From Methylacidimicrobium tartarophylax (lineage in GTDB: Bacteria > Verrucomicrobiota > Verrucomicrobiia > Methylacidiphilales > Methylacidiphilaceae): a stretch of 33,549 bases of DNA. Made by a program: the position numbers and the translations under genes. Under the pieces are notes generated by a model. That model had not been told where the DNA came from, did not search any database, and saw only the letters and a list, made by a program, of their open reading frames with translations. Of the stretch, positions 8,346 through 29,915 are shown piece after piece. Positions within the stretch are counted from its first letter, which is position 1. Each line of letters starts with the position of its first letter. The DNA is taken from assembly GCF_902143375.2 (NCBI RefSeq), contig NZ_CABFVA020000093.1, forward strand, positions 1-33,549, given 5' to 3'.

Positions 8346-8486
8346 GGTCCCGGCTCCCCTGCAACGGGGCCGATGCGGCTTGAGGATGGCGGGTCTCCTT
8401 TCCCCGGTGTTGGATGCGGTGACGCGGAAGAAAGGGTGCTGCGTCCTGTTCGCTCAGCAAGGATGGGAAATGCCGATGGGGGTTCT

Positions 8487-9965
8487 ATGCCGCTCGCCGC
8501 TGCTGTCGACCTAGGATCCAACAGTTTCCATCTGCTCGTCATCCAGGAGGAGAAAGGGCAATTCCGGCCTATCGATCGGTTGAAAGAGCCGGTACGCTTA
8601 GCCGCGGGACTCGACGCTGCTGGGACCTTAAGCCGAGACGCCATGGATCGCGCCTTGCGATGTCTGGAGCGGTTCGGGCAGAGGTTAAAGCCGATTCCGC
8701 CATCGCGGGTGCGAGTCGCAGGAACCAATACCTTACGGAAGGCGCGGAACGCCGAAGAATTCATTCGGAAGGCCGAAAAGGCCCTCGGCCATTCGATCGA
8801 CGTCATTTCCGGCCATGAGGAGGCGCGTTTGATCTACTTGGGTGTTGCCCATGGCACCGAGGAGGACGGGCGATTGCGCTTGGTGGTGGACATCGGAGGA
8901 GGCAGTACGGAACTCATTCTGGGCAGGGGGCTGATACCGGAACGGATGGAAAGCCTGTTCATGGGTTGCGTCAGCATGAGCGGGGCCCACTTTGCCGACG
9001 GGGCGATCAGCCCCTCTCGTATGCGTCGGGCGGAACTGGAAGCTCTTCGTGAATTGGAGCCGATTGCAGCGACTTACCGGTCCGCAGGATGGGGAAGGGC
9101 CATCGGCTCCTCCGGAACGATTCTCGGCATTTTTGGCGTTGTTCAGGCAGAAGGATGGTCGACGCACGGCATCACGGCCGCTGCGCTTAAGAAGATCGAG
9201 AAGGCTCTGGTGGAAGCGGGCAGGGTGGACAAGCTCCCCTTTGGGGGTCTCGATGAAGAGAGGAAGCTCGTTCTCCCCGGGGGGGTAGCCATCCTCGTTG
9301 CGCTTTTCCAGGCTCTCGGCATCGGTGTGCTGGAAGTTTCGCACAGCGCTCTCCGGGAAGGTCTGCTTTACGATCTCTTGGGCAGGAACTCGGAGGCCGA
9401 TTCCCGGGAGACGACGGTGCGGAACCTAGCCGAGCAATTCCGCATCGATGCGCAGCAAGCCCATCGCGTGCAAAAGCTGGCTTTGAATCTCTTTGAGCAG
9501 GTAGCCGCGATCTGTCGATTCACGAAAGAAGACCGCCATTTTTTGTCCTGGGCAGCCCTTCTCCATGAAATTGGGCTCTTTATCGCTTATTCCCAATATC
9601 ATAAGCATGGTGCCTATATTCTGAGTCACATCGACATGCCGGGCTTTTCCCTCGGGGATCAGCAACGACTGGCCTTTCTGGTCCGGAGCCATCGCCGAAA
9701 GTATCCGGGGCAAGAGCTTCTTCTGCTTCGGGAGGCGGATCGGAATTCGACGTTTTGCTTGAGCATCCTGTTACGGATTGCGATCGTTTTGGCGCGGAGT
9801 CGGCAAGATCCTCTTCTCTTGGAGATCGGGATGGAGGGAGGAGAACGCCGTTGGAAGCTTCGGTTCCCGCCGAACTGGCTGACGGAGCACCCGCTGACGA
9901 AGGCCGACTTGGAAGCCGAAGCAGCTTACCTGGAGCCGCAGGGATTCCGATTACGCTTCGACTGA
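8487..9965 (+). CDS. ppx: Ppx/GppA-family phosphatase (exopolyphosphatase or pppGpp phosphatase)
   Basis: This is an ASKHA-fold phosphatase that degrades polyphosphate or converts pppGpp to ppGpp; sequence alone does not separate the two. From the ATG at 8487 it is 492 aa. The N-terminal phosphate loop is AVDLGSNSFHLLV (residues 6-18), VDIGGGSTEL lies near residue 133, and IGSSGTI near residue 205. A C-terminal HD-like helical region carries LLHEIGLFI with YHKHGAYIL, as in long Ppx proteins. ATGs at 8463 and 8373 are in frame; 8487 is chosen because the first strand begins just after it and GGGGG precedes it. It lies 141 nt after msrBA. Its 3' end overlaps the convergent cutA by 15 nt. Confidence 0.9.
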   Translation: MPLAAAVDLGSNSFHLLVIQEEKGQFRPIDRLKEPVRLAAGLDAAGTLSRDAMDRALRCLERFGQRLKPIPPSRVRVAGTNTLRKARNAEEFIRKAEKALGHSIDVISGHEEARLIYLGVAHGTEEDGRLRLVVDIGGGSTELILGRGLIPERMESLFMGCVSMSGAHFADGAISPSRMRRAELEALRELEPIAATYRSAGWGRAIGSSGTILGIFGVVQAEGWSTHGITAAALKKIEKALVEAGRVDKLPFGGLDEERKLVLPGGVAILVALFQALGIGVLEVSHSALREGLLYDLLGRNSEADSRETTVRNLAEQFRIDAQQAHRVQKLALNLFEQVAAICRFTKEDRHFLSWAALLHEIGLFIAYSQYHKHGAYILSHIDMPGFSLGDQQRLAFLVRSHRRKYPGQELLLLREADRNSTFCLSILLRIAIVLARSRQDPLLLEIGMEGGERRWKLRFPPNWLTEHPLTKADLEAEAAYLEPQGFRLRFD

Positions 9966-10283
9966 AGGCTTGGCAATCTCTGCCGTCCACCACCCGAGGT
10001 ATCGCTCTTCGACCTGCTCTGGAGAGAGGGCGACGATCTCCGGACACTCATAGCTATGAGTGTTTCGGACAACGGCTTGCAATTCATCCCATCGCTCTTT
10101 TGCACTCTTCACCAGCAAAAGGACTTCGTCGGCCTCTTCCCGCTTGCCGCGCCACCAGTAAAAGGAGCGGACTCCGGGCAGGAGGTTGACGCAAGACGCC
10201 GCTCGGGCCTCCAAGAGGGCCCGAGCGAGCCGTGCTCCCTCCTCGGAGGACGAGGCGGTGATGAGAACCAAAAGCGGCTTCAT
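9951..10283 (-). CDS. cutA: CutA1 family protein (divalent cation tolerance, PII-like fold)
   Basis: This is a small trimeric protein linked to divalent metal tolerance; its true biochemical role is unsettled in the literature. It is 110 aa, the usual length. Family features are the opening VLITASS strand, ARALLEARAASCVNLLPGVRSFYWW, and the late block NTHSYECPEIVALS. The start ATG overlaps the mnmA stop as ATGA at 10280-10283, so it is probably translated by coupling from mnmA. The C-terminal 15 nt overlap the end of the convergent ppx gene. Confidence 0.92.
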   Translation of the reverse strand: MKPLLVLITASSSEEGARLARALLEARAASCVNLLPGVRSFYWWRGKREEADEVLLLVKSAKERWDELQAVVRNTHSYECPEIVALSPEQVEERYLGWWTAEIAKPSVEA

Positions 10284-24826: not shown

Positions 24827-27424
24827 ATGGGGAGAGTTTCAGGGCGCTTCTCGACATTTGACTCGGGCCTGGCGGCTTTCGAGGAGTTTTCTCGCGTCTC
24901 CCGCAGTCGGTTAGCCGCTCATCCGGATTGGATCGATTGGCTCTCCGCGGTTGTGGCGACCCCCGAGACGGCAAACCGTGGTCCCGGAAGATGGAGGATG
25001 GATTGGTGCGAGCTTTCCGGGGTTCGCGCCGACGCGGTCAGGAAGCTGGACGCAGTCCGGTTGCTCAAACAGCGAGAGCAGCTACGGATCGGCTTCCTCG
25101 ATTTCGCGGGCTTTTATTCGTGGGAAGAAACAACCTCGGATCTTTCTCGTCTTGCCGATTTTTGTGTCTGCACCGTCCTTCAGGTTGCTTGCGAGGAACT
25201 GCGGGCAAACCGGATGCCCCTTGCCATTCTGGCGCTAGGGAAGCTGGGCGCGCAGGAACTCAACTACAGCTCGGACATCGATATCATGTTTATTGCCGAG
25301 GACGAGGAGACTGCTTTTGCGCAGACGCTCCGCACGACGATGGCCCAACGCACAGTGTCGGCTCTCTCGGATTCGGGCGGAATCGGACCGCTCTTCCGGG
25401 TGGATTTGCGGCTGCGGCCGGATGGCAACGCCGGAGCGCTCGTGCCATCGTTCTCCGAGTGCGAGCGTTATTATGCCGCCTCGGGAGAAACCTGGGAGAG
25501 AATGGCGCTGATCAAGGCGCGATTTGTCGCAGGGGAGCCGGATTTGGGGTACGAGTTCGAGGTCCTTCGACAGCAATTTTGTTTTCCGCGTCATCTCTCG
25601 GAGGAGGTCTTCGAGGAGATCGCCGCTATGAAGGCGAGGATCGACGGAGAAATCCTCCTCGGAGATCGGCGGCAGAGGGACGTAAAGCTTGGTCCAGGAG
25701 GAATTCGAGAGATCGAGTTCCTCGCTCAGGCACTTCAGCTCTTTTACGGAGCACGTCAGCCGATCGTTCAAGTTCGTCCCACCTGTGCCGCATTGCGCGC
25801 ATTGGCAACGGTCGGGATTTTGCCGCGACCGCAAGTGGATGCGCTGATCGACGCTTACGGGTTTCTTCGAAATCTCGAACACCGGTTGCAAATGAGAGAA
25901 GAGATTCAGACTCACTTGCTTCCGACCGAAGAAAAGGCGCGGACGGAGATCGCGGAGTCGCTCGGATTCGCCCCTACGGAGTTCGAATCGGCGCTGCAAT
26001 CCCACCGCTCGCTGGTTCATGATCTATTCCAGCAATATTTCATAAAAAGAGAGTCAACTGCCATGCCTGTTCGTCTGGAATTGTTTGCTTCTCCGGAAGA
26101 GGCGGAGCGCAATCTCGATGCACTCCAAGCGAGGGACTCTCTCTTGAGCGCTCCGCGGGCGGCGCGAGCCTATCGCCGTTTGGCTCCATTCCTGGAAAAG
26201 GCGCTTCGAGCGACGGTCGATCCCGATGCCGTTCTTCGTCGATTTGTCTCTTTCGTCTCGAAGTATGGGGCTAGGTCGTTTCTCTTTGAAACCCTCGCGG
26301 TCAATCCCAAGGCGCTTGAGCTTTTAATGAAGCTTTTCGACGCCAGCTCTTTCTTTAGCGAGATCCTCTTTGCCCAGCCGGAACTCTTTGAGGAGATTAC
26401 GCAGAGCCGGTCCTTGGGGAAGCAGAAGGGAAGGGAGGCTTATCTCGAAGAACTGAGCCGTTTACAGGGGGACGTTGCGCTTGCCGCCCGGCTTTATCGG
26501 CGCGGCGAACTCTTGCGCATCTTGCTTCGTGACATCTTGAGGTTGGCTGATCTGCCGGAGGTTCAACAAGAATACACGGCGCTTGCCGAAGCCTGCTTGG
26601 AGCTGGCCTGTCGAACCTTTGGCTCCGGCAGCCTCGCGTATGTCGCGCTTGGTCGGTTCGGCGGCGGGGAACTTGCGTACGGGTCCGATCTCGATTGCCT
26701 CTGCGTCGGTTCTCGAGAGGAGGCGGCGTTGGCCGTCCATCGATTCCTTGGAGAAACTCTCCCTGCCGGCATTCTTTTTGCGATGGACTACAGGCTGCGG
26801 CCCCACGGCGAAGGGCCTCTCGCGCTGCCGCTGGAAGCATACGAGAGCTATTACACGGATGAAGCCCACTTCTGGGAGATTCAGGCGCTAACCCGGGCAC
26901 GGTTTGTGGCGGGGGACTTGAAAACGGGAGAGAGATTCATTGCGATGGTTGATCGGCTATGGAGCGAACGGACTGCGTCCTGTCCCGTGGACGAAATTGT
27001 CTCGATGCGAGAGCGGATTGAGCGGGAACGCCATACCGATGTTCCTCTCCTCCAACGTTTCAAAACCGGGCCGGGAGGGCTGCTTGACATAGAATTTGGG
27101 ATGATCCTTTGGTTGATGAAGAAGAAAAGGAGGGAGCCCAATCTCTGGAAAGCAATTGGTCATCTTCGTTCCAGTGAACCGGAGCTGGCTCGGATGTGTG
27201 AAGAAGGCTATCAATTTCTGCGGCGCTTGGAAGCCGTGCTTCGAAGAGAAAGGAACCAGCAGCAAGAGGTCTTGCCGGAAGATCCGGCTGCCTTGGAAAA
27301 ACTAGGGCGGTTCATGGGGTTTTCCACTCGGGAAGAGTTCATTGAGGCTTATGAGGGGCAACGGAAGACGATCCGAGCGGCTTACCGGGAGCTATGCGAG
27401 CAAGCGCGTCACTTGCCGCGTTGA
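24827..27424 (+). CDS. glnE: Bifunctional glutamine synthetase adenylyltransferase/deadenylylase
   Basis: GlnE adds and removes AMP on glutamine synthetase in response to PII and glutamine. It is 865 aa, somewhat shorter than the roughly 946 aa E. coli protein. Both nucleotidyltransferase domains are intact: the N-terminal one with GKLGAQELNYSSDID (Asp150, Asp152), and the C-terminal one with GRFGGGELAYGSDLD (Asp621, Asp623). Each is followed by a paired block (RVDLRLRPDGNAG; MDYRLRPHGEGP) and a KxGPGGxxxIEF motif. The start ATG has GAGGAG 8 nt upstream. No glnA or glnB is in the window. Its last 86 nt overlap the convergent rnc gene. Confidence 0.95.
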   Translation: MGRVSGRFSTFDSGLAAFEEFSRVSRSRLAAHPDWIDWLSAVVATPETANRGPGRWRMDWCELSGVRADAVRKLDAVRLLKQREQLRIGFLDFAGFYSWEETTSDLSRLADFCVCTVLQVACEELRANRMPLAILALGKLGAQELNYSSDIDIMFIAEDEETAFAQTLRTTMAQRTVSALSDSGGIGPLFRVDLRLRPDGNAGALVPSFSECERYYAASGETWERMALIKARFVAGEPDLGYEFEVLRQQFCFPRHLSEEVFEEIAAMKARIDGEILLGDRRQRDVKLGPGGIREIEFLAQALQLFYGARQPIVQVRPTCAALRALATVGILPRPQVDALIDAYGFLRNLEHRLQMREEIQTHLLPTEEKARTEIAESLGFAPTEFESALQSHRSLVHDLFQQYFIKRESTAMPVRLELFASPEEAERNLDALQARDSLLSAPRAARAYRRLAPFLEKALRATVDPDAVLRRFVSFVSKYGARSFLFETLAVNPKALELLMKLFDASSFFSEILFAQPELFEEITQSRSLGKQKGREAYLEELSRLQGDVALAARLYRRGELLRILLRDILRLADLPEVQQEYTALAEACLELACRTFGSGSLAYVALGRFGGGELAYGSDLDCLCVGSREEAALAVHRFLGETLPAGILFAMDYRLRPHGEGPLALPLEAYESYYTDEAHFWEIQALTRARFVAGDLKTGERFIAMVDRLWSERTASCPVDEIVSMRERIERERHTDVPLLQRFKTGPGGLLDIEFGMILWLMKKKRREPNLWKAIGHLRSSEPELARMCEEGYQFLRRLEAVLRRERNQQQEVLPEDPAALEKLGRFMGFSTREEFIEAYEGQRKTIRAAYRELCEQARHLPR

Positions 27425-28073
27425 GCTCCGCCTCTTTTTTGCTGCTGCCGAAACCTTCGCCGAGACGTTCGGCACCCCATTCGACGACGACGTGGTACCA
27501 TTTCCGGTGAGCGGCGCCGGATTGGCTCACGCATTGATACCGGGGCGGTTCCCCACCTTGCTTCTGCAGCAGCTCTTGCAGCATCCCTTTTGGGTTGCCG
27601 AGCAGGGCCTCCGGTGAGAATGCAAGCTCTTGGATGGCCTCAGAGAAGAGCTTGCGGATCACGCCTTTGGCTTTACGCCACCCACCGTCTCGATAGACGG
27701 CGCCGATCAGCGCTTCAAACGAATCGGCCAAATTCGATTCCTTTGTCCGACCGCCGCTCTTTTCTTCTCCTTTACCCAAGTGGAGGAGCTCTCCAATGCC
27801 CAATTTACCGGAAATCGCGGCAAGACTGGAGCGATTGACCAGGAAAGAGCGCATTTTGGTAAGAAGACCCTCCCTGTGCCCAGGAAACAGGGCATGGAGA
27901 TGATCCGTGATCGCGAGTTGGAGGACGGCGTCGCCGAGGAACTCCAGTCGCTGGTAGTTTGGGCCGTCGAATCTCCTTTCCGCGGTGTGGGAAGGGTGCG
28001 TAAGAGCCTCACGTAGCAGTTGAGGGCTCCGGAACTGATAACCGATCACTGCTTGAAGAGACTCCAGGTTCAT
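27339..28073 (-). CDS. rnc: Ribonuclease III
   Basis: RNase III cuts double-stranded RNA, processing rRNA precursors and some mRNAs. It is 244 aa. Catalytic residues Glu44 and Asp48 in RLEFLGDAV and Asp117 and Glu120 in LADSFEALIGA match the E. coli positions with a constant offset of three. A double-stranded-RNA-binding domain occupies about 160-227, and the last 17 residues form a Pro/Ser-rich tail. The 3' end lies inside glnE on the opposite strand for 86 nt, including part of the RNA-binding domain. A 206-nt spacer separates it from the recombinase gene upstream and may hold a structured leader. Confidence 0.95.
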   Translation of the reverse strand: MNLESLQAVIGYQFRSPQLLREALTHPSHTAERRFDGPNYQRLEFLGDAVLQLAITDHLHALFPGHREGLLTKMRSFLVNRSSLAAISGKLGIGELLHLGKGEEKSGGRTKESNLADSFEALIGAVYRDGGWRKAKGVIRKLFSEAIQELAFSPEALLGNPKGMLQELLQKQGGEPPRYQCVSQSGAAHRKWYHVVVEWGAERLGEGFGSSKKEAELNAASDALARIAPGKPLGSSSVAPHKPQ

Positions 28074-28279: not shown

Positions 28280-29191
28280 TCACTTTCCCCTGGGGTGAAA
28301 CCTACGGTGGACTTCTCGCAAACGGTCAATTTCCACGTGAGTGTAGATTTGAGTTGTGGCGAGATCGGCGTGTCCGAGCAAGAGTTGAAGGGAGCGGAGA
28401 TCGGCGCCGCGATGAAGAAGGTGAGTGGCGAAGGAATGCCGCAAAAGGTGAGGGTGGATCCCGTGACGAAGCCCGGCCTTTCGTGCCATCTGCAAAAGAA
28501 GCTGATTGACCGAAAAGCGACTCAGCGGCCTTCCCCCTCTTTTTAAAAAAAGGAAATCACACCTCCTTGTACCGACAAGGCGCGGGCGACCGCTTCGTAG
28601 GTATTCCTCCAGCGCGTGAATGGCTGCACATCCCAAGGGGACGACCCGTTCCTTCCGGCCTTTCCCGAATACCCGCAACAGCTGTTCCTCGGGCAAGAAA
28701 GAAGTCAGACGCAGGTCCACTAGTTCGCTCGCCCGCAGTCCGGCGCCATAGAGCATCTCGACGATTGCCCGATTGCGCACTCCCTCCTCTGTTTCTGGTA
28801 AATCAATGGATAATAACTGGAGCACATCCTTCTCTGACAATATGCGAGGAATACGCAGGCCAACCTTGGGTAACTCTAGATCTTGCGAAACATCTACGGA
28901 GATCAAGCCTTCTTGCCGCAAGTAGGAAAAAAAATGGCGCAGAGCCACGATCGACGCTTTTAATGAACTGGGAGCCAATCCTCTCTCCTTCTCCTTTTCC
29001 AGATACTCGTACAGATGCTCGCTGGTGACCGAGGCTGGGCTGACGAGATTCTTCGCGACCGCCCATCGGGCAAACGCCTCAAGGAGTAGGCGATTGGTCA
29101 TCTGCGTGTTGACCGAGTGATCCTTTTCGGTCGCAAGAAAGCGCAGGGTCGACTCAAGCGCTCCCGACCATGTGTCGCCCCTGATTTTCAT
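28280..29191 (-). CDS. Tyrosine recombinase of the XerC/XerD type
   Basis: This site-specific recombinase probably resolves chromosome dimers at dif. It is 303 aa from the ATG at 29191, the normal Xer length. The N-terminal SAM-like core-binding domain is about 5-95. The catalytic set is complete: Arg153 (GAGLRASEL), Lys177, His248 and Arg251 (HPHLLRHSFATHLL), His274 (LLGHADLATTQ) and nucleophile Tyr283. An in-frame ATG at 29254 would add 21 basic residues and overlap the previous gene; the later start fits the family. XerC and XerD cannot be separated here. No dif-like site was found, and the neighbours are housekeeping genes, so it is unlikely to be a phage integrase. Confidence 0.88.
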   Translation of the reverse strand: MKIRGDTWSGALESTLRFLATEKDHSVNTQMTNRLLLEAFARWAVAKNLVSPASVTSEHLYEYLEKEKERGLAPSSLKASIVALRHFFSYLRQEGLISVDVSQDLELPKVGLRIPRILSEKDVLQLLSIDLPETEEGVRNRAIVEMLYGAGLRASELVDLRLTSFLPEEQLLRVFGKGRKERVVPLGCAAIHALEEYLRSGRPRLVGTRRCDFLFLKRGGRPLSRFSVNQLLLQMARKAGLRHGIHPHLLRHSFATHLLHRGADLRSLQLLLGHADLATTQIYTHVEIDRLREVHRRFHPRGK

Positions 29192-29207
29192 CGCATGCCG
29201 GCGGCTT

Positions 29208-29915
29208 CTACTGGCTGTGATTGAGGCCCGCAAGGATTTCAGGATCCCGGACATCAGCCCAGTCCCCTTTCAAAAGGAATCCATGGACCTTCCCTGTGCG
29301 GGAAAGTTGCCGCAAGGCATCGGTAAGCTCATATTCGCCCCGCCGTGATTTTTCCAGCCGATCCATAAAAAGAAAGACTCGAGGGTTAAGTGCGTAAATG
29401 CCTGCATTGTAGAGACTCTTCGCGAGGAGTTCCGGATTATCCGTTTTTTCGATAATATCCTCGACCAGGCCGGACTCGTTGAGGAGAACGGCGCCACCCA
29501 GGCGAACATCTTGACCGGAGCAGAGAGCAATGACTCCGTCATCTTGATAGGCTGCAACCAGACGGCCGTATTCCTCAGGCTTGATTAGTATATCGCCGTA
29601 GGAAAGGAGGAAGGGGTCGTCGTGCACCCACTCTCGCGCGAGGAGGGGCGCGCGGCCGGTGCCATCGAGGACGAGTTGTTCCCGATAGGTGATCGAAACT
29701 CCAAGCGCGATTCCGTCTTTGAAATGAGAGAGGATCCTCTCCTTCTGGTGGCCGATGACGATGCAAAACTCGGTGACGGCAGCGGAGTCGCGCAACCCAC
29801 GGACAATCCATTCGAGTACCGGGAGCCCGCGCACGACCAACATGGGCTTAGGGATGTCCGAGGTCAATGGACCCATGCGGGTGCCTCTACCCGCCGCAAG
29901 GATCAACGCTTTCAT
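29208..29915 (-). CDS. Sugar-phosphate nucleotidyltransferase family protein
   Basis: A single-domain nucleotidyltransferase of 235 aa that should activate a sugar phosphate with an NTP. The nucleotide-binding signature AGRGTRMGPLT is at residues 8-18, PKPMLVV follows near residue 23, and the metal-binding Asp is in LLSYGDILI near residue 107. It lacks the left-handed helix domain of GlmU, so it is not a full GlmU; the size fits MurNAc-1-P or mannose-1-P-type transferases. The substrate cannot be assigned. It lies 16 nt before the recombinase and 66 nt after rdgB. Confidence 0.85.
   Translation of the reverse strand: MKALILAAGRGTRMGPLTSDIPKPMLVVRGLPVLEWIVRGLRDSAAVTEFCIVIGHQKERILSHFKDGIALGVSITYREQLVLDGTGRAPLLAREWVHDDPFLLSYGDILIKPEEYGRLVAAYQDDGVIALCSGQDVRLGGAVLLNESGLVEDIIEKTDNPELLAKSLYNAGIYALNPRVFLFMDRLEKSRRGEYELTDALRQLSRTGKVHGFLLKGDWADVRDPEILAGLNHSQ

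Follow-up and report, generated by a model that had tools for sequence, protein, structure and literature searches.

Why do glnE and rnc, which converge in Methylacidimicrobium tartarophylax, share their 3' coding ends, and is the shared stretch kept because it does something or because it is difficult to lose? In the window, by which we mean the whole stretch of 33,549 nucleotides that was analysed (contig NZ_CABFVA020000093.1), glnE (24827–27424, plus strand, 865 aa) encodes a glutamine synthetase adenylyltransferase/deadenylase and was identified from its open reading frame (ORF) and from Pfam matches to GlnE (PF03710, E = 8e-81) and GlnD_UR_UTase (PF08335). The facing gene, rnc (27339–28073, minus strand, 244 aa), encodes ribonuclease III and was identified from its ORF and the Pfam families Ribonucleas_3_3, Ribonuclease_3 and dsrm (RNase III match PF14622, E = 1e-31; dsrm match PF00035, residues 161–225). 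A previous, sequence-only reading of this DNA had placed the two genes on opposite strands with 86 bp in common, and the ORF coordinates agree with it exactly. The tail-to-tail coding overlap runs from 27339 to 27424 on both strands, and its register is kept in relatives. Both overlapping genes are genuine, and the overlap is real.

The overlap spans GlnE residues 838–865 and RNase III residues 218–244, together with two bases of residue 217. The sequence-only reading had also put part of the RNA-binding domain of RNase III opposite glnE. This holds for just the last eight or so residues of that domain (218–225, at 27399–27424 on the minus strand, delimited by the Pfam dsrm limit and the substitution pattern), which face an unconserved glnE tail; the rest (residues 226–244) is a poorly conserved tail lying opposite glnE. 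The rnc tail faces the conserved C-terminal end of GlnE (27339–27394, plus strand; R850, Y853 and, as the last, L856), as judged from alignments and from the substitution pattern in genus g1. With the GlnE core ending at 27394, a boundary placed by eye, and the dsrm domain ending at 27399, a boundary taken from Pfam, the conserved cores are 4 bp apart and do not overlap. Because they abut in this way, each stop codon sits inside the other gene: a distance of 16 nt separates the glnE TGA (27422–27424, plus strand) from the codon for the first Lys in the SKKEAE motif of rnc, and the rnc TGA (27339–27341, minus strand; TCA on the plus strand) falls within glnE codons F836–I837. The phase of the overlap (123:132) sets glnE codon positions 1, 2 and 3 opposite rnc positions 1, 3 and 2, so that first positions face each other and the third positions of each gene face the second positions of the other.

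The distribution of the arrangement was followed in 62 genomes of the window's order and in a class sample of 335 genomes, of which 109 carried glnE at E <= 1e-20 and 104 had the 3' end of glnE read. Five genomes of the order sample (G021, G047, G049, G052 and G054) fall outside the 3'-end reading, and the 28 rows of the profile HMMs used for the class survey include L099 (G077), with one rnc stop misread. An in-register overlap of 44 to 92 bp was found in 21 of the 104 glnE 3' ends. The window's family, f1, which includes acidophilic methanotrophs, contributes 13 of 13 genomes, with 86 bp in six and 83 bp in one of the g1 genomes, 62 bp in three and 77 bp in two of g2, and 86 bp in g3. Family f9 adds three genomes, all three of genus g11, with 77 bp each. 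Beyond the window's order, the overlap is present in four of four glnE-bearing genomes of a second order (G083 and G107, 80 bp; G091, 92 bp; G075, 44 bp), from which five genomes were sampled, and in one of six glnE-bearing genomes of a third order (G101, 86 bp).

Long overlaps of this kind may be sequencing or ORF-calling artefacts, arising from a lost stop or a frameshift; in the excerpted part of one survey, 968 overlaps longer than 60 bp were studied and just 54, all of them convergent, were possibly real (PMC2478687). At glnE-rnc, one register recurs in 21 separate assemblies from three orders, and in 13 of 13 family genomes each frame continues cleanly into the other gene. We therefore reject an artefact, which we regard as vanishingly improbable.

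The sequence-only reading had proposed to check whether relatives keep the overlap. They do so throughout the window's family, where an earlier glnE stop without overlap is absent from every relative; this does not extend to all other families, some of which have a gap or non-adjacent genes. In 12 of the 104 loci rnc was convergent nearby but out of register. One of these (G115) has a 12-bp overlap, and the 11 non-overlapping pairs have gaps of 7, 7, 14, 15, 43, 154, 539, 1179, 1652, 1757 and 3331 bp, among them the f12 pairs (L117, L118, L121, L123 and L125; 7–43 bp) and the f10 genome G077 (154 bp). The near-contact state of f12 may represent a stage preceding the formation of the overlap or one following its relaxation. 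rnc was absent from the stretch read in 71 of the 104 glnE loci, several of which end at contig ends. Outside the class, 80 named loci were checked and rnc was found in four (L151, L168, L173 and L180), which are Verrucomicrobia records or a match to a class genome; the rest had none within flanks of up to 2.5 kb. glnE is itself patchy, being found in 109 of the 335 class genomes and missing at E <= 1e-20 from several genomes of the order that are close to complete. Weak glnE matches with frames of about 900 aa may, as a guess from their length, be GlnD.

The age of the arrangement can be approached through its register. The LP motif of glnE and the KKEAE motif of rnc are 168 nt apart throughout f1 and 159 nt apart in f9, f24, G075 and G101; in G091 the distance is 156 nt and glnE is one codon shorter. 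The same distance is 215–264 nt in the non-overlapping f12 pairs and 185 nt in G115. The glnE stop lies 16 nt from the rnc K codon in g1, g3, f9, f24 and f21, 25 nt in g2 and −5 nt in G101. The overlap length equals 2 modulo 3 in 21 of 21 cases, while the length itself drifts between 44 and 92 bp. This shared register points to one inherited overlap for the first two orders.

A GlnE tree agrees with this picture. It was built by a quick method from 98 rows with the last 30 residues dropped, leaving aside L048 and L054 (cut by contig ends), L062 (the second G046 copy), G015, G051 and G053, and some of its branches have support below 90. The second order is placed next to that of the window (SH-aLRT 88), and the overlap label needs 3 changes on the tree compared to 19.2 when shuffled; nothing among the 98 rows suggested that the pair had moved from one order to another. 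The 20 overlaps of the first two orders fit a single origin, with loss in f2/f4, and the G101 overlap may have been inherited or formed again. The overlap is ancient, its register being fixed across at least two orders and probably a third.

The surroundings of the pair change over the same range. The order hemB-glnE-rnc-xer is kept in the f1 genomes G006, G011 and G008, and xer-rnc-glnE in the examined loci of f1, f9 (G020 and G030), f12 (G103) and f14 (G115); this comparison of gene order excludes matches of ORF w27, which is probably an antisense frame of minus-strand genes. In the second order (four loci) and the third (one locus), glnE and rnc were the only genes of the window to be found, so that the overlapping pair itself is the only adjacency common to the window and those loci.

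We then asked how exceptional the overlap is against other convergent genes, using a home-made gene caller on 400-kb samples. In G005, from the window's genus, 19 of 63 convergent pairs overlap, seven by at least 60 bp and four, including glnE-rnc, by at least 86 bp. An unusual length for the genus was thereby rejected as an explanation, because four of the 63 pairs equal or exceed 86 bp. In G007, from the next genus, 7 of 41 convergent pairs overlap, and glnE-rnc is the longest at 62 bp. Overlaps of at least 40 bp were seen in 11 of the 63 pairs in the G005 sample versus 1 of the 41 in the G007 sample. A looser comparison of the two samples, in which both genes were traced for just 11 of the 63 and 10 of the 41 pairs, showed glnE-rnc alone to overlap in each.

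Three further overlaps of G005 served as controls: PDT/YkuD (77 bp), Der/P-type ATPase (71 bp) and DapF with an unknown partner (67 bp). They are three of the seven G005 overlaps of at least 60 bp, the others being glnE-rnc and pairs of 137, 109 and 103 bp. The controls are kept in 6, 5 and 5 of six g1 genomes, the seventh, incomplete g1 genome (G003) having no match for the control pairs, and in none of the six genomes of g2 and g3, which are the only family genomes outside g1; the control values L306, from a partial partner match, and L319 were counted as no overlap. The DapF pair is still convergent in g2 and g3, with gaps of 94–247 bp. The glnE-rnc overlap is kept in six of six g2 and g3 genomes. 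We conclude that the length of the overlap is ordinary within the window's genus, whereas its retention is not.

We propose that an ancient, structurally locked and passively kept convergent overlap is the best and simplest explanation, and we consider it likely. In the window, the conserved core of GlnE and that of the dsRNA-binding domain of RNase III have come to stand end to end, separated by about 4 bp. With no spacer left to hold the stops, each frame would continue as a short tail, antisense to the other core, until a stop codon is reached; the positions of the stops can be seen directly, and the tails would be dispensable, judging by the substitution pattern. Given the phase, a mutation that creates a stop in either tail would usually alter an amino acid in the facing core, and a rearrangement that broke the chromosome within the overlap would be expected to harm both genes. 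These costs would allow the pair to persist while its surroundings shuffle. Since passive locking should hold for the three lost controls as well, something may favour the glnE-rnc pair beyond locking.

The seven g1 genomes provide the substitution pattern. Where the glnE core faces the rnc tail, differences per site are 0.127, 0.150 and 0.414 at glnE codon positions 1, 2 and 3; over glnE alone, the mean pairwise differences per site are 0.205, 0.149 and 0.458. Where the rnc core faces the glnE tail, the values at rnc positions 1, 2 and 3 are 0.057, 0.105 and 0.314, similar in shape to those of rnc alone (0.150, 0.105 and 0.461). Both tails appear free in g1, and no nucleotide- or RNA-level constraint beyond the two protein frames was seen in the substitutions of these seven genomes. 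The pattern is blurred in f9, f24 (0.333/0.316/0.263, two sequences) and partly in g2, which offer fewer sequences and where the core/tail split, being fixed relative to the glnE stop, takes in non-overlapping sites.

These values bear on a regulatory alternative that the sequence-only reading had raised, in which the two mRNAs pair over 86 nt and RNase III cuts the duplex, lowering rnc mRNA with glnE transcription and conversely. Its premise of at least 86 nt of complementarity stands: any glnE mRNA and rnc mRNA reaching their stops necessarily share 86 nt, and between full-length messages the match is unavoidable. Sense-antisense pairing needs no particular sequence, so the lack of extra constraint leaves the duplex possible, and the deep in-register conservation and a retention better than that of the three controls would suit such a circuit. 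So would the lengths, as all 21 in-register overlaps measure at least 44 bp, compared to products of about 22 nt that RNase III yields from long dsRNA in E. coli, according to the extracts of that study used here (PMC7373196). Precedents are found in the excerpts available for S. aureus rnc (PMC3386247), overlapping transcripts (PMC7154746) and the arfA/mscL pair (PMC10070815). Yet relatives manage without the overlap (gaps of 7–43 bp in f12 and 154 bp in the f10 genome G077, or non-adjacent genes), nothing above protein-level constraint is seen in g1, and the overlap varies in length from 44 to 92 bp. Furthermore, ribosomes translating the two coding 3' ends would stand in the way of pairing. 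Altogether, we consider the circuit unlikely. RNase III cutting of the 86-bp sense-antisense match is possible, and the feedback loop is hypothetical and of low probability. In its widest form, with the level of RNase III set by transcription of glnE, and hence nitrogen regulation, through a loop held in overlapping frames across several Verrucomicrobiota orders, the proposal is rather improbable. Under passive locking, RNase III may still trim the 3' ends of the two mRNAs, more likely as an incidental effect than as the reason for retention.

A structured element was also looked for at the site. When 27300–27460 was folded, neither the plus strand (z = −1.27) nor the minus strand (z = −0.28) formed an exceptional hairpin. 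The unusually stable hairpin expected in the rnc mRNA under autoregulation of RNase III through a structured site was thus not found within this folded stretch. A search of the window against Rfam returned one tRNA and no other structured RNA match.

The arrangement could instead be kept for transcription, with facing polymerases or Rho terminating there and each gene serving as the terminator region of the other. In the window, no canonical intrinsic terminator lies near the glnE or the rnc stop, and terminator-like sites are no commoner than in shuffled sequences (4 versus 5.0 +/- 2.0), as this idea would allow. In a home-made scan of convergent ends (L251–L290), canonical intrinsic terminators seemed nearly absent, with 1 among the 208 ends of the two genera, and this scarcity suggests that transcription in the group may end through Rho or by some other route. 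However, gapped convergent pairs are equally without terminators, so that the property is not specific to glnE-rnc and the absence at this pair is uninformative, and weak terminator-like sites do occur in overlapping genomes (4 of 21 on the glnE side and 1 of 21 on the rnc side). A role in termination as the reason for retention therefore seems to us quite improbable, and passive locking remains the preferred explanation.

Convergent overlap is a known kind of arrangement, and what is notable at glnE-rnc is its depth and durability. In the excerpts of the survey mentioned above, long overlaps of more than 60 bp also lie tail to tail between conserved genes, and for most of the 54 that might be real, conservation is said not to reach beyond very close species (PMC2478687). 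The register of glnE-rnc, in contrast, holds in two orders at least and probably in a third, over a range in which the two proteins have drifted apart to about half identity. Cutting of overlapping sense and antisense transcripts by RNase III is known from elsewhere (PMC7154746, PMC7373196 and PMC3386247, as far as the extracts go). For arfA/mscL of Enterobacteriaceae, RNase III-dependent antisense control was shown by experiment; as described in the part consulted, this pair too consists of convergent neighbours with complementary 3' ends, but there the mscL 3' UTR is complementary to the arfA 3' coding end, whereas at glnE-rnc the complementary ends are coding on each side, and RNase III itself is the product of one partner (PMC10070815). 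Work on excludons and RNase III-digested 3' ends indicates, in the passages at hand, that convergent genes without an evident terminator can overlap in their transcripts (PMC7154746), while glnE-rnc is known from the genes alone. In S. aureus, rnc is likewise a candidate substrate, but in the excerpted account RNase III cleaves within its own coding mRNA (PMC3386247), unlike the duplex with a facing gene considered here.

Our literature search found no publication on the glnE-rnc overlap or on overlapping genes and antisense in Verrucomicrobia, and no transcriptome of the group. The pair is well suited to testing whether mechanical locking or function makes overlaps persist, and because one partner destroys sense-antisense duplexes, the functional alternative is directly testable.

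Other overlaps are present in the window. The ORFs at 8373–9965 (plus strand) and 9951–10283 (minus strand) form a second convergent overlap of 15 bp (9951–9965). On the minus strand, the ORF at 28280–29254, which from the look of its sequence we take to be a xer-like recombinase, starts within the 3' end of the ORF at 29208–29915, presumably a nucleotidyltransferase, giving a same-strand overlap of 47 bp (29208–29254); the real start of the former may be further in.
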